Below, one piece after another: positions 11,515 to 40,912 of a DNA stretch of 42,519 bases. Position 1 is the stretch's first letter. Every line of letters starts with the position of its first letter. The notes under the pieces are model-generated. The model saw only the letters and a list, made by a program, of their open reading frames with translations. It ran no database searches and was not told the DNA's origin. This DNA is from Actinomycetes bacterium (GTDB lineage: Bacteria > Actinomycetota > Coriobacteriia > Anaerosomatales > Anaerosomataceae), in assembly GCA_021372825.1 (NCBI GenBank), contig JAJFTR010000073.1, positions 1-42,519 on the forward strand. Reading direction: 5' to 3'. The translations under genes and the position numbers were made by a program.

Positions 11515-13041
11515 GTGACGATGCGCCCGTATTCCATACGTGCGCGCGTTCTGTACCTGGCGATAGTCTTCGCGTTGGTACTTGTTGGAAGCGTGACGGT
11601 CGCGACGTACTTCTTCGTGGCCGACGGCATGACCAGGTCGGCGGAGGACACGTCCGTTCGTCTCGCGCACCATGCGAGCCGCGCGGTGTCGCGCGCCATC
11701 ACCGATGCCAAACTGAGTGCGGAAGCCGCAGGCCTAGAGGGAGAGGTCCGCGAGTCGGAGGCCCAGAGGCTCGTTCTTCGGGCGACGCGTGACCTTTTTT
11801 CAGTCACAGCAGGTGCTGACGAGGCGGCGTATGCCCTTTACATCCAGGACCTATCCAGTGGCGCGATGAGGTTGGCGTGGTTCAGCGACAAGAGCGCGGT
11901 CGTGGACTCGGATGCGGAACGGGCGCGAGCCGTAGCCGATCGACAGCCGATGCATGTGGAGCCCGCGGGGCCGAAACTGCTCACCGGTATGTTCTCAAGG
12001 GCCGACCTGGGTCTTTACATCGTTCACATACCGCTCGATCTGCCCGACCAGACCGCGGGTGTGCTCGATGTCGTCTACGATCCGGTAAGAGAAGAGTCCA
12101 TCTTAGACTCGGCTCGTCGTCCGATGCTCATCGTCGCGGTGTTCGCGCTGCTGCTCGCGATCATGACTATGCAGATAATCATGGGATGGGTGCTCTCGCT
12201 CGTCGAGAACGTGAAGACGGCAGCGGATTCCATCGACGCAGGGCAGCTCGATGTGCACCTGCCGGAGGAGGGCGAACACGAGATCTCCGAGCTGGCGCAT
12301 TCCATCAACCAGCTCATCGACCGATTACGTCGTCGTGCGGAGGTGCAGACAAGGTTCGTGGCCGACGCATCTCATGAACTTGCCACGCCGGTCGCTGGCA
12401 TTCGGGGATACGTCAACATCCTGAGAGACTGGGGAGCCGAGGACCCCGTCATGCGGGACGAAGCGATCTCCGCGATCGACCGCGAGTCGCGCCGGATGGC
12501 CCGCTTGTGCTCGGACCTCCTCTCGATGGTTCGCAGCGAGGAAGTCCTGGAGTTCAAGAGTGTGCGTTACGACATCAACGCGGTCAGCCGCGAGGTGTTG
12601 GCAGGGGCCGCCACCCGTTACCTCGACAAGGACCTGGAGTTCGTCGGTCCGGAGGAGGGACCGCTGTGGCTGTACGGCGACCCGGACCGTGTGGAGGAGG
12701 CTCTCGCGATTTTGGTCGACAACGCGTGCAAGTACACACCCGCCGCAGGACGGGTCGAGGTCTCCACGCGGCGGCACCGTGATCGCGTGATCATCGAGGT
12801 ATTGGACACGGGGGTGGGTATCCCCGAAGAGGACCTGCCGAACATCTTCGAGCGCTTCTACCGGAGTGATGCGTCTCGTTCCAAGGAGACGGGCGGTTTC
12901 GGGTTGGGACTCCCCATCGCCAAGCAGATCATCGACACGAGCGGCGGCATGATCTGGGTGAGGAGCAAGCCAGGCGCGGGAACTACGTTCACGATCTCCT
13001 TGCCGCGAAGCAAGCCACACGAGACGAAGGACTCCACATGA
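11515..13041 (+). CDS. Membrane sensor histidine kinase
   Basis: 508 residues with a GTG start just after the response regulator. Layout: TM1 (~10-32), an extracytoplasmic domain (~35-200), TM2 (~203-226), HAMP (~227-275), HisKA with phosphoacceptor His287 in DASHELATPVAGIRGY, then HATPase with N-box (LVDNACKYTP), G1 (DTGVGIPEEDLPNIFERFYR) and G2 (GGFGLGLPIAKQI). All catalytic boxes look intact. It overlaps the next gene by four bases, so it may be co-translated with the transporter gene. Confidence 0.92.
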   Translation: MTMRPYSIRARVLYLAIVFALVLVGSVTVATYFFVADGMTRSAEDTSVRLAHHASRAVSRAITDAKLSAEAAGLEGEVRESEAQRLVLRATRDLFSVTAGADEAAYALYIQDLSSGAMRLAWFSDKSAVVDSDAERARAVADRQPMHVEPAGPKLLTGMFSRADLGLYIVHIPLDLPDQTAGVLDVVYDPVREESILDSARRPMLIVAVFALLLAIMTMQIIMGWVLSLVENVKTAADSIDAGQLDVHLPEEGEHEISELAHSINQLIDRLRRRAEVQTRFVADASHELATPVAGIRGYVNILRDWGAEDPVMRDEAISAIDRESRRMARLCSDLLSMVRSEEVLEFKSVRYDINAVSREVLAGAATRYLDKDLEFVGPEEGPLWLYGDPDRVEEALAILVDNACKYTPAAGRVEVSTRRHRDRVIIEVLDTGVGIPEEDLPNIFERFYRSDASRSKETGGFGLGLPIAKQIIDTSGGMIWVRSKPGAGTTFTISLPRSKPHETKDST

Positions 13042-13601
13042 CGAGGACGCGGCGCATCGCCCAAGCCGGGATCATTGCGGCTGCGTACGCGGTCCTCACT
13101 CTCCTCGTGATCCAAAACCCCCTCGGGTTCGGGCCGGTCCAGTTCCGTGTCTCGGAGGCCTTGACGGTCGTCGCGCTCTTCACGCCTGCGGGAGCGCCGG
13201 GGCTGGCACTCGGGTGCGCTCTGGCGAACCTCGCGATGGTGGGCCGGTTCGGGCCGATGGCATTGCTCGATGTCGTGTTCGGGTCTCTCGCGACGTACAT
13301 CGGCGCCCGATGGACCTACAAGTGGCGAGCCCGCCCGCTCATCGCCTTCGCGGGGCCAGTGGTGGCGAACGCCGTCATCGTGCCGGCGTATCTGCCCCTT
13401 GTGCTCGGTGCGGCGGGCTTCTACGACGTGAATGTCCTCGGAGTCGATGTCGCCTCGTCGTGGCCGCTCATGTATGTCTTCGGCGTGGTCACAGTGGCCG
13501 CGGGCGAAGCTCTTGTCGTGTACGGACTCGGGATGCCGGTGGCGGCGATGTTGCGTTCGCTTGACCGAGCGGGTATGTTCGGCCACACGACACAGGACTG
13601 A
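13038..13601 (+). CDS. QueT-type queuosine-precursor ECF transporter S component
   Basis: A 187-residue integral membrane protein with about five or six hydrophobic segments. The N-terminal half (GPVQFRVSEALTVVALF, then PGLALGCALANLAMVG) is the hallmark of the QueT family, which delivers queuosine precursors (preQ0/preQ1) with a shared ECF energizing module. It overlaps the kinase stop by four bases (ATGA). No preQ1 riboswitch is possible directly upstream because there is no leader. The vitamin-like substrate is inferred from the family. The start is fixed by the overlap. Confidence 0.75.
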   Translation: MTRTRRIAQAGIIAAAYAVLTLLVIQNPLGFGPVQFRVSEALTVVALFTPAGAPGLALGCALANLAMVGRFGPMALLDVVFGSLATYIGARWTYKWRARPLIAFAGPVVANAVIVPAYLPLVLGAAGFYDVNVLGVDVASSWPLMYVFGVVTVAAGEALVVYGLGMPVAAMLRSLDRAGMFGHTTQD

Positions 13602-15429
13602 CGGGGAGGGGTCTCAGACGCAAGGAGAGAACGCGACTCACGCGGAAGTCGCCGGACATCGACGCGGACCGCTCATCCAGCACCAAAAGGATGTCTGTCG
13701 TGAGTGTTGGGGCTGTGTCCGCATCTGCCCAGTAAAGGCCATACGGGTCACCGAAGGCCGCTCGGAAGTCATTCCCGAGAAGTGCATCGCGTGCGGACTC
13801 TGTGTCAACGAGTGCGGTGCTAGCGGTCACGTCGTGCGCGACGACACGCCCGCGGTGCTCGATCTGCTCGAAAGCCGTCGCCCTGTCATCGCGCTGCTGG
13901 CGACCGAGTTCATCGCTGCGCTGCACCCGCTCACGGTCCCTCAGATCGAGCGCGCCGTAGCAGCCTTGGGGTTCTACTCAGTGGAGACCACGCTGCTTGG
14001 AGAGGAGATCGTCGCTCAGGAATACGAACGCCTGTACGCACGCGAGGGGATCCTGTTCGCGCTGCGTTCGACGTGTCCCGTGGCGGTGGATTTCGTCCGC
14101 AAATTCTACCCCGCGCTGACTCCGGCTCTCGCGCCGATAGTGCCGCCGTACGTTGCACAGGCCCGCCTCATCAAAGAGGTGTACCCCGGCGACGTCGCGA
14201 TCGTGTATGTGAGCCCGTGTTTCGCGCGTAAAGACGAGGTCTACGAGCCACAGTTCGAAGGACTCATCGATGCGGCCATCGACTTCATCGAACTCAAGAA
14301 GCTGATCGTCGAATCGGAGCGGCGGCCAGCGCACGGTCGCACAGCGGAGCCCGCCAGGCATCGTCCGGGCATCCTGAAGGAGCTCTCCCTTACCGACGGT
14401 TTCCCTAGGCGAACGCTTCTGGCGCGCAACATGACAGATCAAGACGTGATCACTGTGCGCGGCATCGATGCATTGGATCGGCTGATGAAGGCAGTGGTCT
14501 CTGGGGAGACTGCGCCGACGATCGTGGACATGCTGATGTGTGAGGGATGCATAGACGGTCCGGCCGTGAACCCGGGCCTATCGCTTTTTGCCAAGCGCAA
14601 CGTGGAGTCGGTCGCTCGTGAGATGCCAGGCGCCACCCGTGTCAGCACGCGAGCTCTACTGTCTGTCTTGCCATCGGTGGATCTTGTCCGGTCCTTCAGC
14701 CCGGATGCTGTCAAGGTGCCACGCCCTTCTAACGAGCAGGTGGCTGCCGTGCTCGCGGAAGGCGGGTTCGCAAGCCGTTCTGATGTTATCGACTGTGGTG
14801 CCTGCGGCTATCGCACGTGCGTTGCGCATGCCGAGGCGATCTTCCGCGGCGACTCCACGTGGGCCATGTGCTTCCCCTTGCAACGCCGCCGGCTTGAGAG
14901 AGCGGAAGAGGCCGCAGAGGCGTGTGTGACCCTCGATGAGACGACGGGCCTTTGGAACAGAAGAGCGTTCACGGACCGCCTGGAACTGGAGATGGACCGC
15001 CACGTGAGGTACCGGACTCCGCTGTGTTTGCTGCTTGTGGATGTCGACCACTTCTCGTCGGTGAACGACCTTCTCGGCGAAGAGGGCGGTGACGACGTCC
15101 TCGCGGCTCTGGGCAAGATGTTCACACAGAACCTTCGGACGACCGATATGGTGGCGCGTTTCCGTGGCGACCAGTTCGCGATCCTCCTGCCCGGTGTGCC
15201 GAAGACAGCGGCTTTCGCCGTGGCCGAGAAGCTGCGTGCCATGGCACGGCGAGCCCACTTCGACGTCGCAGAGGGGTATAGAACTGATGTGAGCCTCACC
15301 GTTTCAATCGGGGTTGCAAGCGCAGGTGATGCGATATCCGATCCGACGGCCTTGATCGAGGCAGCCGATGCGGTATTACGCCAAGCCGCACGGTCCGGGA
15401 GCGATCAGGTGGGTCTCGCTCCCGGCTAG
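13561..15429 (+). CDS. Ferredoxin / [FeFe]-hydrogenase-like / Fe-S / degenerate GGDEF fusion protein
   Basis: About 622 residues from a TTG at 13561. No ATG, GTG or TTG lies in frame between 13564 and the conserved start near 13680, although AAGGAGAG sits at 13622-13629, so the 5' end is uncertain. Layout: two [4Fe-4S] motifs (CRECWGCVRICP, CIACGLCVNEC), a hydrogenase large-subunit-like region with reduced H-cluster motifs (STCP with C172, SPCFARKDE with C220, MCEGCIDGP with C327/C330), a four-Cys Fe-S motif (CGACGYRTC, ~410) and a GGDEF domain (~457-620). In the last, GGDEF is RGDQF (535-539), while the I-site RxxD (526-529) remains. This suggests a redox or H2 sensor with a c-di-GMP-binding output, not an H2-producing enzyme (inference). 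Confidence 0.8.
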   Translation: MTERVCSATRHRTDGEGSQTQGENATHAEVAGHRRGPLIQHQKDVCRECWGCVRICPVKAIRVTEGRSEVIPEKCIACGLCVNECGASGHVVRDDTPAVLDLLESRRPVIALLATEFIAALHPLTVPQIERAVAALGFYSVETTLLGEEIVAQEYERLYAREGILFALRSTCPVAVDFVRKFYPALTPALAPIVPPYVAQARLIKEVYPGDVAIVYVSPCFARKDEVYEPQFEGLIDAAIDFIELKKLIVESERRPAHGRTAEPARHRPGILKELSLTDGFPRRTLLARNMTDQDVITVRGIDALDRLMKAVVSGETAPTIVDMLMCEGCIDGPAVNPGLSLFAKRNVESVAREMPGATRVSTRALLSVLPSVDLVRSFSPDAVKVPRPSNEQVAAVLAEGGFASRSDVIDCGACGYRTCVAHAEAIFRGDSTWAMCFPLQRRRLERAEEAAEACVTLDETTGLWNRRAFTDRLELEMDRHVRYRTPLCLLLVDVDHFSSVNDLLGEEGGDDVLAALGKMFTQNLRTTDMVARFRGDQFAILLPGVPKTAAFAVAEKLRAMARRAHFDVAEGYRTDVSLTVSIGVASAGDAISDPTALIEAADAVLRQAARSGSDQVGLAPG

Positions 15430-15442
15430 CCGAGGAGGGCGT

Positions 15443-16450
15443 ATGCACGACGCGGTTCTATGGGAGTCCGATGGCGAGCGCGTGCGCTGTCTACTGTGTC
15501 CCCATGACTGCCGGATCGCGCCGGGTCACCACGGCATCTGTGGCGTCCGGGAGAACGAGGGCGGCCGATTAATCGCGCTCACGTACGGAAAGGTCTCCTC
15601 AGTGGCGGTCGATCCGATAGAGAAGAAGCCGGTCTTCCACTATCGGCCGGGGACCAAGGCGCTCTCTTTGGGAAGTGTCGGCTGCACGATGAAGTGCGCA
15701 CATTGCCAGAACTGGCAGATAAGCCGAGCATCGCCCGCGGATGGCATCACAGGCGAGTTGCCACCCGACGAAGTCGCCGGTCTCGCGCGTACGAACGGGT
15801 GCGAGGGTGTCGCCTTCACATACAACGAGCCAGTGATCTGGATCGAGTACGTGATGGATACGGCCCGTGCCTGTCATGCCGCCGGGCTGTACACCGTGAT
15901 GGTCACCAATGGCTACATCACAGACGCGGGACTGGACAGTCTCGGCGGTCTTATCGATGTGTGGCGCGTAGACGTGAAGGCCTTCGACGATCGCGTATAC
16001 CGTCGATTGTGCAGAGTGCCCTCGGTCAAACCCGTTCTCGAGGCGACGTGTCGAGCGAAACGCACGTGGGGGATGCACGTAGAGGTCGTCACGAACGTCA
16101 TACCGACCATCAATGACGATGACGAGACGCTAGAGGGAATCGCTACCTGGATACATGATGAGCTTGGGGAGGACACGCCGTGGCATGTCACGCGGTTCTT
16201 CCCCTATCTGGAACTCGAGCACCTTCCGCCGACGCCGCGCGCGACACTCTTGCGTGCGCGTCAGATCGGTCATGAAGTGGGTCTTGCTTTCGTCTACCTT
16301 GGTAATGTAGATGAGCCTGGCGGTGAGAACACGGTGTGTCCGGCGTGCGGTTCGATTGCGGTGGCTCGCGACGGATACACGGTCACGGCCATGAACACGC
16401 GGGACGGAAGCTGCGGCGCATGCGGGAGGCCACTGGGCATCGTGGAGTAG
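15443..16450 (+). CDS. amrS: AmmeMemoRadiSam system radical SAM enzyme
   Basis: 335 residues. An N-terminal cysteine set (CLLCPHDC...GICGVREN) is followed by the radical-SAM cluster motif CTMKCAHCQNWQIS (Cys near 81, 85 and 88). Typical AmrS blocks follow: GVAFTYNEPVIWIEY, VMVTNGYI, DVWRVDVKAF, and a C-terminal CPACG...CGACG zinc-ribbon-like end. The ATG at 15443 has GAGGAGGG upstream; it lies 14 bases after the hydrogenase-like gene, so the two may be co-transcribed. The usual partners MEMO1 and AMMECR1 are not in the window. The substrate of this enzyme family is not established. Confidence 0.88.
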   Translation: MHDAVLWESDGERVRCLLCPHDCRIAPGHHGICGVRENEGGRLIALTYGKVSSVAVDPIEKKPVFHYRPGTKALSLGSVGCTMKCAHCQNWQISRASPADGITGELPPDEVAGLARTNGCEGVAFTYNEPVIWIEYVMDTARACHAAGLYTVMVTNGYITDAGLDSLGGLIDVWRVDVKAFDDRVYRRLCRVPSVKPVLEATCRAKRTWGMHVEVVTNVIPTINDDDETLEGIATWIHDELGEDTPWHVTRFFPYLELEHLPPTPRATLLRARQIGHEVGLAFVYLGNVDEPGGENTVCPACGSIAVARDGYTVTAMNTRDGSCGACGRPLGIVE

Positions 16451-16489: not shown

Positions 16490-16495
16490 TATGAT
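16490..16495 (+). promoter_or_regulatory. Putative -10 element upstream of the glycosyltransferase operon
   Basis: TATGAT (5 of 6 to consensus) lies in the 103-base gap between amrS and the glycosyltransferase. No convincing -35 and no TGn extension are seen. Confidence 0.3.
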
Positions 16496-16553
16496 AGTGA
16501 GTCGCTGGTCCAGTTCGACCGTGTCAGCGCGGCTCACGAAAGAGGCATTCGGC

Positions 16554-17798
16554 GTGGAACCTTGTGTCATCATTCCGACGTTCTGGGCGAGGCGTCGTAC
16601 ACGTGGGGGGGATCGTCGGCCATCGCGTTTCGATCACCCCACCCCTGTCGATCAGACAGGCACGCTTCCGGCGTGTCTGAGCTCTCTGGAAGCGATCGAC
16701 GGTCTTGGACGCGTCGTGGTCATCATCGCCGCGGCTGACGCATCGACGATGCACGAGGCAGAGGACCGTGTGAGTGAGATAGTCGCCGACTTCCCGAGCA
16801 TCGACCCACTTGTCGTGGGGTCAGCCGAGATGGGCTCGTTGCATCGGAGGTTGGAGCAACTGGAGTTCGCCGATGTTTCTGGCGGCGTCGGCGTGAGCGG
16901 ATATGGCGCTGTCCGCAACGCGGGTCTTGTCATCTCGGCCATTCTCGGTCACGACACTGTCGTGTTCATCGATGACGATGAAGCGGTGACCGATCCCCGG
17001 TTCCTGACCACGGCAATGGAGGGCATCGGCGAGACGACGCAAGGCGGCAAGCGCATCCTCGCGAAGAGCGGATACTACGTGGACGCTCAGGGTAGATACC
17101 AAGCCGCCGTCGATGCGCCCTGGTATGACCTGTTCTGGCGGCAGGACATCGCATACAACGAGGCGCTTGGAGTCGTCGCAGCACCTCCGAGGATCCGCCC
17201 GAGTTCTATCGCGATGGGCGGCTGTCTCGCGTTGCACAGGGACATGTACTGCAACGTCTCGTTCGATCCGTGGGTCCTTCGAGGCGAAGACATGGACTAT
17301 GTGATCAACGCGCGCATGCACGGTGGTGACGTGTTCCTCGACGGGGAATGGTCGATCCTTCACACACCGCCTTCTACGGCCAGCGAAGCGACCGTGTTCA
17401 CACATGATGTCTACCGGTTCATCTACGAGCATCGCAAGCTGGAATTCGCAGAGTCTCAAGTAGACCTGCGTCAGGTCAAGCCGGAAGCCCTCATGCCCTA
17501 TCCGGGGCGTTTCGTCGACTCTTCGATCGGTTGGCGTTCACGCGTCACCGCTCTTCTGCGTGCGCTCGCCGGCCGCGAGTCCAAACAGTACCTGCATGTG
17601 GCCCGCAAAGTCGTGAGTGAGGCGTCGCAGTACGCTCGCGACAACTGTGAGAAGTACTTCGCTTTTCAGCGCCGTTGGCCGCTCGTCATGGACCGGATCT
17701 GGGAGGACGTCGCCCTGAAGTCGCTGTTCACGGGAGAACGCCAGCTCGACCGCAGCGCCATCACGGGCCGCTTCCCGGTGGTGCGGCCTGATCGATGA
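16554..17798 (+). CDS. Family 2-type glycosyltransferase-like protein
   Basis: About 414 residues from a GTG at 16554, with AGAGG 9 bases upstream; earlier in-frame starts (16491, 16519) lack a ribosome site. It begins VEPCVIIPTF, then has a Rossmann-like GT-A fold with the metal-binding triad VVFIDDDEAV (~residues 138-147) and a later GEDMDYVINARMHGG acceptor-site motif, as in galactosyl/mannosyl-type GT2 enzymes. No membrane segment is apparent. The donor and acceptor are unknown. It overlaps the next gene by four bases (ATGA). Confidence 0.7.
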   Translation: MEPCVIIPTFWARRRTRGGDRRPSRFDHPTPVDQTGTLPACLSSLEAIDGLGRVVVIIAAADASTMHEAEDRVSEIVADFPSIDPLVVGSAEMGSLHRRLEQLEFADVSGGVGVSGYGAVRNAGLVISAILGHDTVVFIDDDEAVTDPRFLTTAMEGIGETTQGGKRILAKSGYYVDAQGRYQAAVDAPWYDLFWRQDIAYNEALGVVAAPPRIRPSSIAMGGCLALHRDMYCNVSFDPWVLRGEDMDYVINARMHGGDVFLDGEWSILHTPPSTASEATVFTHDVYRFIYEHRKLEFAESQVDLRQVKPEALMPYPGRFVDSSIGWRSRVTALLRALAGRESKQYLHVARKVVSEASQYARDNCEKYFAFQRRWPLVMDRIWEDVALKSLFTGERQLDRSAITGRFPVVRPDR

Positions 17799-40729: not shown

Positions 40730-40883
40730 GAACCTCGGGCCGGGGGAAGATGCTATGCAGAACTGAGAAGAAGAGGGGAATATAGCAGGGATTGAGAATC
40801 TAAGAGTAGCCGACAGGGAGACGCAGACACGCCGTAAGCATGATCGATACGGTCACCGATCGAATCGGCGTTGAGTCAATGGT

Positions 40884-40912
40884 GAGACCGGCCCCAGGAT
40901 AGGGCCGGTCTC
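40884..40912 (+). terminator. Intrinsic terminator downstream of lon
   Basis: A perfect 11-bp stem GAGACCGGCCC / GGGCCGGTCTC with a 7-base loop, followed by TGTGCGTTTTC. It is the strongest terminator-like hairpin in the window, 155 bases after the lon stop. Confidence 0.82.

Follow-up and report, generated by a model that had tools for sequence, protein, structure and literature searches.

Within the window, the 42,519-nucleotide stretch of Actinomycetes bacterium DNA analysed here, positions 13432..15429 of the forward strand form one uninterrupted open frame of 665 codons, which encodes ferredoxin motifs, an [FeFe]-hydrogenase-type fold, a further iron-sulfur motif and a degenerate GGDEF domain (Table 1). 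The start codon is not fixed because homology to relatives sets in only near 13669; the TTG at 13561, chosen as the start in the original prediction, is the last standard in-frame start ahead of that homology. Residues are counted here from the start of the frame at 13432, and the cysteines originally numbered C172, C220, C327 and C330 correspond to C215, C263, C370 and C373. All four domain types exceed their Pfam cut-offs: Fer4_10 at 29.7 bits, Fe_hyd_lg_C (residues 152-377) at 105 bits against a cut-off of 22.1, FeS PF04060 (residues 453-481) at 32 bits and GGDEF (residues 500-658) at 125 bits. An AlphaFold2 model of the fusion protein, built on 47 orthologues, has a mean pLDDT of 87.4 and a pTM of 0.70. 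Foldseek searches with this model return [FeFe]-hydrogenases as the best matches (E 2.6e-17) and also match GGDEF structures, including 3ign and WspR.

Table 1. Features of the fusion gene and its conserved neighbours, in window positions
Feature	Positions	Strand	Basis or remark
QueT-type transporter, conserved upstream neighbour	13038..13601	+	Pfam, synteny
Fer4 x2 - [FeFe]-hydrogenase-fold - FeS - degenerate GGDEF fusion gene	13561..15429	+	frame opens 13432, start uncertain
Two [4Fe-4S] ferredoxin motifs	13678..13815	+	Pfam; Cys 89, 92, 95, 99 and 118, 121, 124, 128 (P0001)
Fe_hyd_lg_C domain	13885..14562	+	cubane ligands C215 (STCP), C263 (SPC), C370 and C373 (CEGC)
Four-Cys FeS (PF04060) motif	14788..14874	+	C455/C458/C463/C480
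Short linker helix, Fe-S module to GGDEF	14875..14928	+	AlphaFold2 secondary structure, model residues 402-419
GGDEF domain without catalytic residues	14929..15405	+	Pfam, Foldseek, alignment
Second I-site arginine R526, upstream of RTTD	15007-15009	+	WspR R198 equivalent
I-site RTTD (R569, D572; residues 569-572)	15136..15147	+	alignment
Degenerate A-site RGDQF (residues 578-582)	15163..15177	+	sequence, alignment
AmrS, AmmeMemoRadiSam radical SAM enzyme, conserved downstream neighbour	15443..16450	+	TIGR04337, synteny

The original prediction of a hydrogenase-like protein and a GGDEF domain in a single chain is upheld by the one open frame, by the Pfam matches to both Fe_hyd_lg_C and GGDEF and by the conservation of the fusion across the order, and every motif residue it named is present, with RTTD exactly five residues ahead of RGDQF. 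A frameshift that merely joins two separate genes can be discarded in view of the single frame and the order-wide fusion. The same architecture is found at full length in nearly all of the 61 genomes of the window's family and order (Coriobacteriia, OPB41/Anaerosomatales-like), and these full-length relatives share 46-71% identity over the aligned part. With this recurrence and the prediction of both folds, the fusion is far beyond chance. In the open-access literature we found no description of an Fe_hyd/GGDEF fusion, in agreement with the original statement that no such protein was known.

Among the 298 genomes of the class that were searched, no strong match lies outside the order, and a search of 396 genomes of the phylum found relatives outside the class in 35, placing the fusion in other deep Actinomycetota families as well. 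Thirty of these phylum relatives were examined, with Pfam run on two of them; the same fusion, GGDEF included, occurs in 28, and the GGDEF domain is lacking in the other two (L193, L194). In a tree of the hydrogenase module, inferred like our other trees by a quick method with no bootstraps, all 48 Actinomycetota fusion sequences used form one clade (SH-aLRT 100). Two Bacillota proteins (L148 and L149, from genomes G526 and G382) that join a sensory [FeFe]-hydrogenase module to GGDEF and HD-GYP domains fall elsewhere in the tree. We therefore rejected a shared origin for every Fe_hyd-GGDEF fusion and consider the Bacillota one independent, because it forms a separate clade.

The hydrogenase module retains both the Fe_hyd_lg_C fold of [FeFe]-hydrogenases, as seen by Pfam and Foldseek, and the cysteines that bind its clusters. 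The cubane ligands C215, C263, C370 and C373 are invariant in the 47 orthologues, as are seven of the eight ferredoxin cysteines (C89 is present in at least 90%), and the four cysteines of the PF04060 motif are conserved across the same sequences. The canonical L2/L3 context of K358 and C-x3-C is missing. The position of CpI K358 is occupied by arginine in all order sequences, the third H-cluster motif is C-x2-C and thus one residue short, the M353 position is serine, and the proton-transfer cysteine is replaced by threonine. The C-x2-C spacing on its own was rejected as proof that the H-cluster is lost: it also occurs in Bacillota relatives from genomes with HydG.

The maturases tell more. 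Neither HydG nor HydF exceeds its curated cut-off in any of the 61 genomes of the order, a set that includes drafts in which genes may be missed; the search worked on its positive control, T. maritima. HydG is likewise below cut-off in all 28 examined fusion-bearing genomes elsewhere in the phylum. Across the 35 phylum genomes, the HydG cut-off is passed only in G866, with fragments in G947, and both of these genomes carry versions of the hydrogenase module without GGDEF. The fusion gene is the only Fe_hyd_lg_C gene in the window's genome, and order genomes with the gene contain Fe_hyd_lg_C solely in this form (the G022 copy is divided between two contigs). With HydG and HydF missing and no other [FeFe]-hydrogenase-like gene present, the 2Fe subcluster would therefore be unbuildable by known routes. 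The absence of the maturases is a stronger argument than the diiron-site motifs. The original prediction had also treated the module as hydrogenase-like in the sense of sensing H2; taken together, the missing maturases, the arginine at K358 and the short third motif do not bear this out, and that H2 role is probably wrong.

Other relatives of the module have different outputs. In Bacillota, L111, L145 and their relatives fuse sensory [FeFe]-hydrogenase modules to a sigma-54 activator AAA+ domain and a Fis-type helix-turn-helix, and L111 has a catalytic-type hydrogenase frame alongside. Within Coriobacteriia, family f18 contains canonical-looking Fer4 - Fe_hyd - FeS sensor genes (L094, L095 and L098), each followed by an ORF that by eye resembles a SpoIIE-type phosphatase. 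HydG over cut-off was not found in these f18 genomes, and their sensor genes are possibly another maturase-free group.

In the window's family, the GGDEF domain no longer has the residues of an active diguanylate cyclase. The glutamate at the fourth motif position is absent from all 26 family sequences (Gln in 16, Arg in 9 and Thr in 1), the FK lysine and the GH histidine occur in 0/26 and the first glycine in 3/26, and the C-terminal lysine (the YxAK lysine, equivalent to PleD K442) is also lost. Catalysis depends on the motif acids and on the K442/R446 pair, and the roles of PleD K442 and of the motif Asp and Glu in Mg coordination have been stated (PMC3509222). In the window's gene the motif reads RGDQF in place of GG(D/E)EF, and a sequencing artefact is ruled out because the glutamate is missing from every family sequence. 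Asp 537, 554 and 580, which aid metal or GTP binding in active cyclases, are kept in 26/26, so the former active site may still bind nucleotide.

The I-site has fared differently. R569, D572 and R526, which map to WspR R242, D245 and R198, are each conserved in 26/26 family sequences, and I-site binding in WspR requires both R242 and R198 (PMC2270323). The domain combines a degenerate A-site with an intact RxxD and second I-site arginine; the receptors PopA and SgmT show this pattern of an inactive A-site beside a functional I-site (PMC3509222). Both halves of the earlier description, a GGDEF domain that is cyclase-dead by sequence and an I-site that is kept, are thereby confirmed. Since the intact cyclases retain RxxD as well, constraints of the fold may account for part of its conservation.

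In the other families of the order (26 sequences), all of these GGDEF and I-site positions are canonical. A tree of the hydrogenase module, with the GGDEF columns left out, places the window's family as one clade inside the intact ones, and the active site decayed independently on 2 occasions within the order and on 3 across the phylum as a whole. The closest relatives elsewhere in the phylum have an intact GGDEF, and the receptor state is therefore derived rather than general. In the second decay (L052/L053) D537 and D580 are lost and RQSD is kept, while in the third (L200) the motif has become EGEDNF with RSSD kept; RxxD survives in every decay. In the window's family, selection on GGDEF is relaxed but still purifying: by a simple counting method, dN/dS in family pairs is about 0.13-0.32 for GGDEF and 0.04-0.17 for the hydrogenase module. 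The ratio of GGDEF to hydrogenase-module divergence is 1.33 in this family versus 1.02 elsewhere. One family member, L059 of G006, has altered ferredoxin cysteines and a GGDEF motif changed to GADGL, with RSTD kept; in this draft the gene lies in two frames and includes undetermined bases.

The window's genome also encodes two canonical GGEEF proteins, and the window itself contains an HD-GYP protein and a c-di-GMP-II-GAG riboswitch at 40808-40900 on the forward strand (49.5 bits against a cut-off of 40). c-di-GMP signalling in the same cell is therefore plausible. The riboswitch lies directly upstream of a GTG-start ORF (40914->42518) that runs off the window and looks secreted, with an SdrB/SpaA-like segment.

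The gene neighbourhood is conserved. A QueT gene lies upstream in 54/55 order loci, and AmrS, which scores 338 bits with TIGR04337 (cut-off 220), is the next gene downstream, in the same orientation, in 51/55, mostly at a spacing of 13-30 bp; some of the exceptions are contig ends. Several deep families (f56, f75, f83, f84 and f92) likewise have AmrS next to the gene. The QueT–gene–AmrS link is strong. It is not universal: f42 loci have no AmrS neighbour, L052, L053 and L054 have the gene with no AmrS beside it, and in L158 and L159, from two genomes without the gene, QueT and AmrS are direct neighbours at an empty site. In G029, G034, G036 and G048 the gene is absent and AmrS has no close match, two of these genomes being drafts of 86% and 65%. 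No established function of AmrS was found in the literature, and a promoter scan near the fusion gene found none. Beyond AmrS, at 16491-17798 on the forward strand, lies a gene for a 435-aa protein with no Pfam or NCBIfam match that appears glycosyltransferase-like by eye; its relatives also come after AmrS in L158 and L159.

We file the fusion gene as neither a functional [FeFe]-hydrogenase nor a diguanylate cyclase, and we lean towards the reading that its product is a redox/Fe-S sensory module tied to c-di-GMP, converted in the window's family from a writer into a probable reader. Under this model, an [FeFe]-hydrogenase-fold Fe-S module that presumably has no catalytic diiron site would be joined by a short helix to the GGDEF domain, and its conserved cysteines would suffice to ligate as many as four [4Fe-4S] clusters. 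Across most of the phylum, this module would tune diguanylate cyclase activity to the cell's redox or Fe-S state. The window's family would differ: c-di-GMP supplied by other enzymes would bind the I-sites of a GGDEF dimer and change how the Fe-S module assembles or works, with a physiological target probably tied to the neighbouring AmrS and QueT genes. Fe-S redox sensing, c-di-GMP binding and the coupling of both are what we infer from these features.

The alternative that deserves most weight, although we judge it unlikely, is that the decayed GGDEF domain serves as a mere dimerisation or folding module that does not bind c-di-GMP, leaving the Fe-S module to do the work. The faster divergence and higher dN/dS of the GGDEF domain fit this explanation, as does the further decay of L059, but it sits poorly with three I-site residues that are invariant in the whole family and in the second decay, and with an RxxD that outlasts even the changes in L059 and L200. 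Rather less probable is a role of the fusion protein as a c-di-GMP-gated electron-transfer or regulatory partner of AmrS and not primarily as a signalling sensor. Synteny within and beyond the order, together with the genomes in which both the gene and a close AmrS match are missing, speaks for such a partnership; the empty QueT-AmrS sites and the loci that have the gene with no AmrS beside it speak against it.

We give little credence to the two readings that would restore a catalytic or H2-sensing function. A true H2 sensor whose H-cluster is matured by an unknown route is very improbable: the four cubane ligands are all conserved and the related Bacillota modules mostly occur in genomes with HydG (21/25), but the order has neither maturase at cut-off, the diiron-site positions are altered, described isolates of the order use [NiFe] hydrogenases (PMC9686372), and HypD, HypE and HypF, for [NiFe]-hydrogenase maturation, are encoded in the window. 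Hardest to credit is a diguanylate cyclase that is active despite RGDQF. Some first-position variants (AGDEF and SGDEF) are active (PMC3974145) and the three aspartates are retained here, but arginine is absent from position one of the active variants of VCA0965, replacement of the fourth-position glutamate by alanine inactivated that enzyme (PMC3974145), and that glutamate and the catalytic lysines and histidine are lost family-wide.

A redox/Fe-S module that acts through c-di-GMP, as we propose, would resemble several known systems in part. Hemerythrin-GGDEF redox or oxygen sensors likewise place a GGDEF domain under the control of non-haem iron, through a diiron four-helix domain unrelated to the hydrogenase fold. 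An architectural parallel exists with the sensory [FeFe]-hydrogenases of Groups C and D (TmHydS and TamHydS; HydDB C1-C3), which share the Fer4 - Fe_hyd_lg_C - FeS module with a signalling output fused or encoded alongside, and which have also lost the proton-transfer cysteine. Characterised members of these groups carry an H-cluster, whereas no HydG or HydF was found here, and the HydDB Group C outputs are kinase, chemotaxis and phosphatase, with GGDEF not listed (PMC5037454). The Bacillota proteins L148 and L149 pair the same input module with c-di-GMP domains, but keep GGEEF/AGEEF and occur in genomes with HydG. In the putative [NiFe] Group 2c of HydDB, too, a hydrogenase-type sensor has been proposed to be coupled with c-di-GMP; this is an unrelated [NiFe] protein for which diguanylate cyclase is listed as linked (PMC5037454), unlike the Fe-S fusion described here. 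PopA and SgmT share the dead A-site and intact RxxD I-site (PMC3509222), but in them the GGDEF domain is joined to receiver, GAF or kinase modules rather than to an Fe-S hydrogenase fold.

Whether these genes represent an ancient Actinomycetota family that has permanently lost the diiron site and become an Fe-S redox sensor acting on c-di-GMP, with at least 3 switches from maker to reader, is in our estimate an even call. Annotations may present such genes as H2-sensing [FeFe]-hydrogenases, and the missing maturases argue for a phylum-wide group of them that is unconnected to H2. The sister families with an intact cyclase, set beside the dead cyclase and intact I-site here, form natural before-and-after pairs suited to testing the conversion of a c-di-GMP writer into a reader, and the fusion would represent an Fe-S input to c-di-GMP signalling in barely studied subsurface anaerobes.
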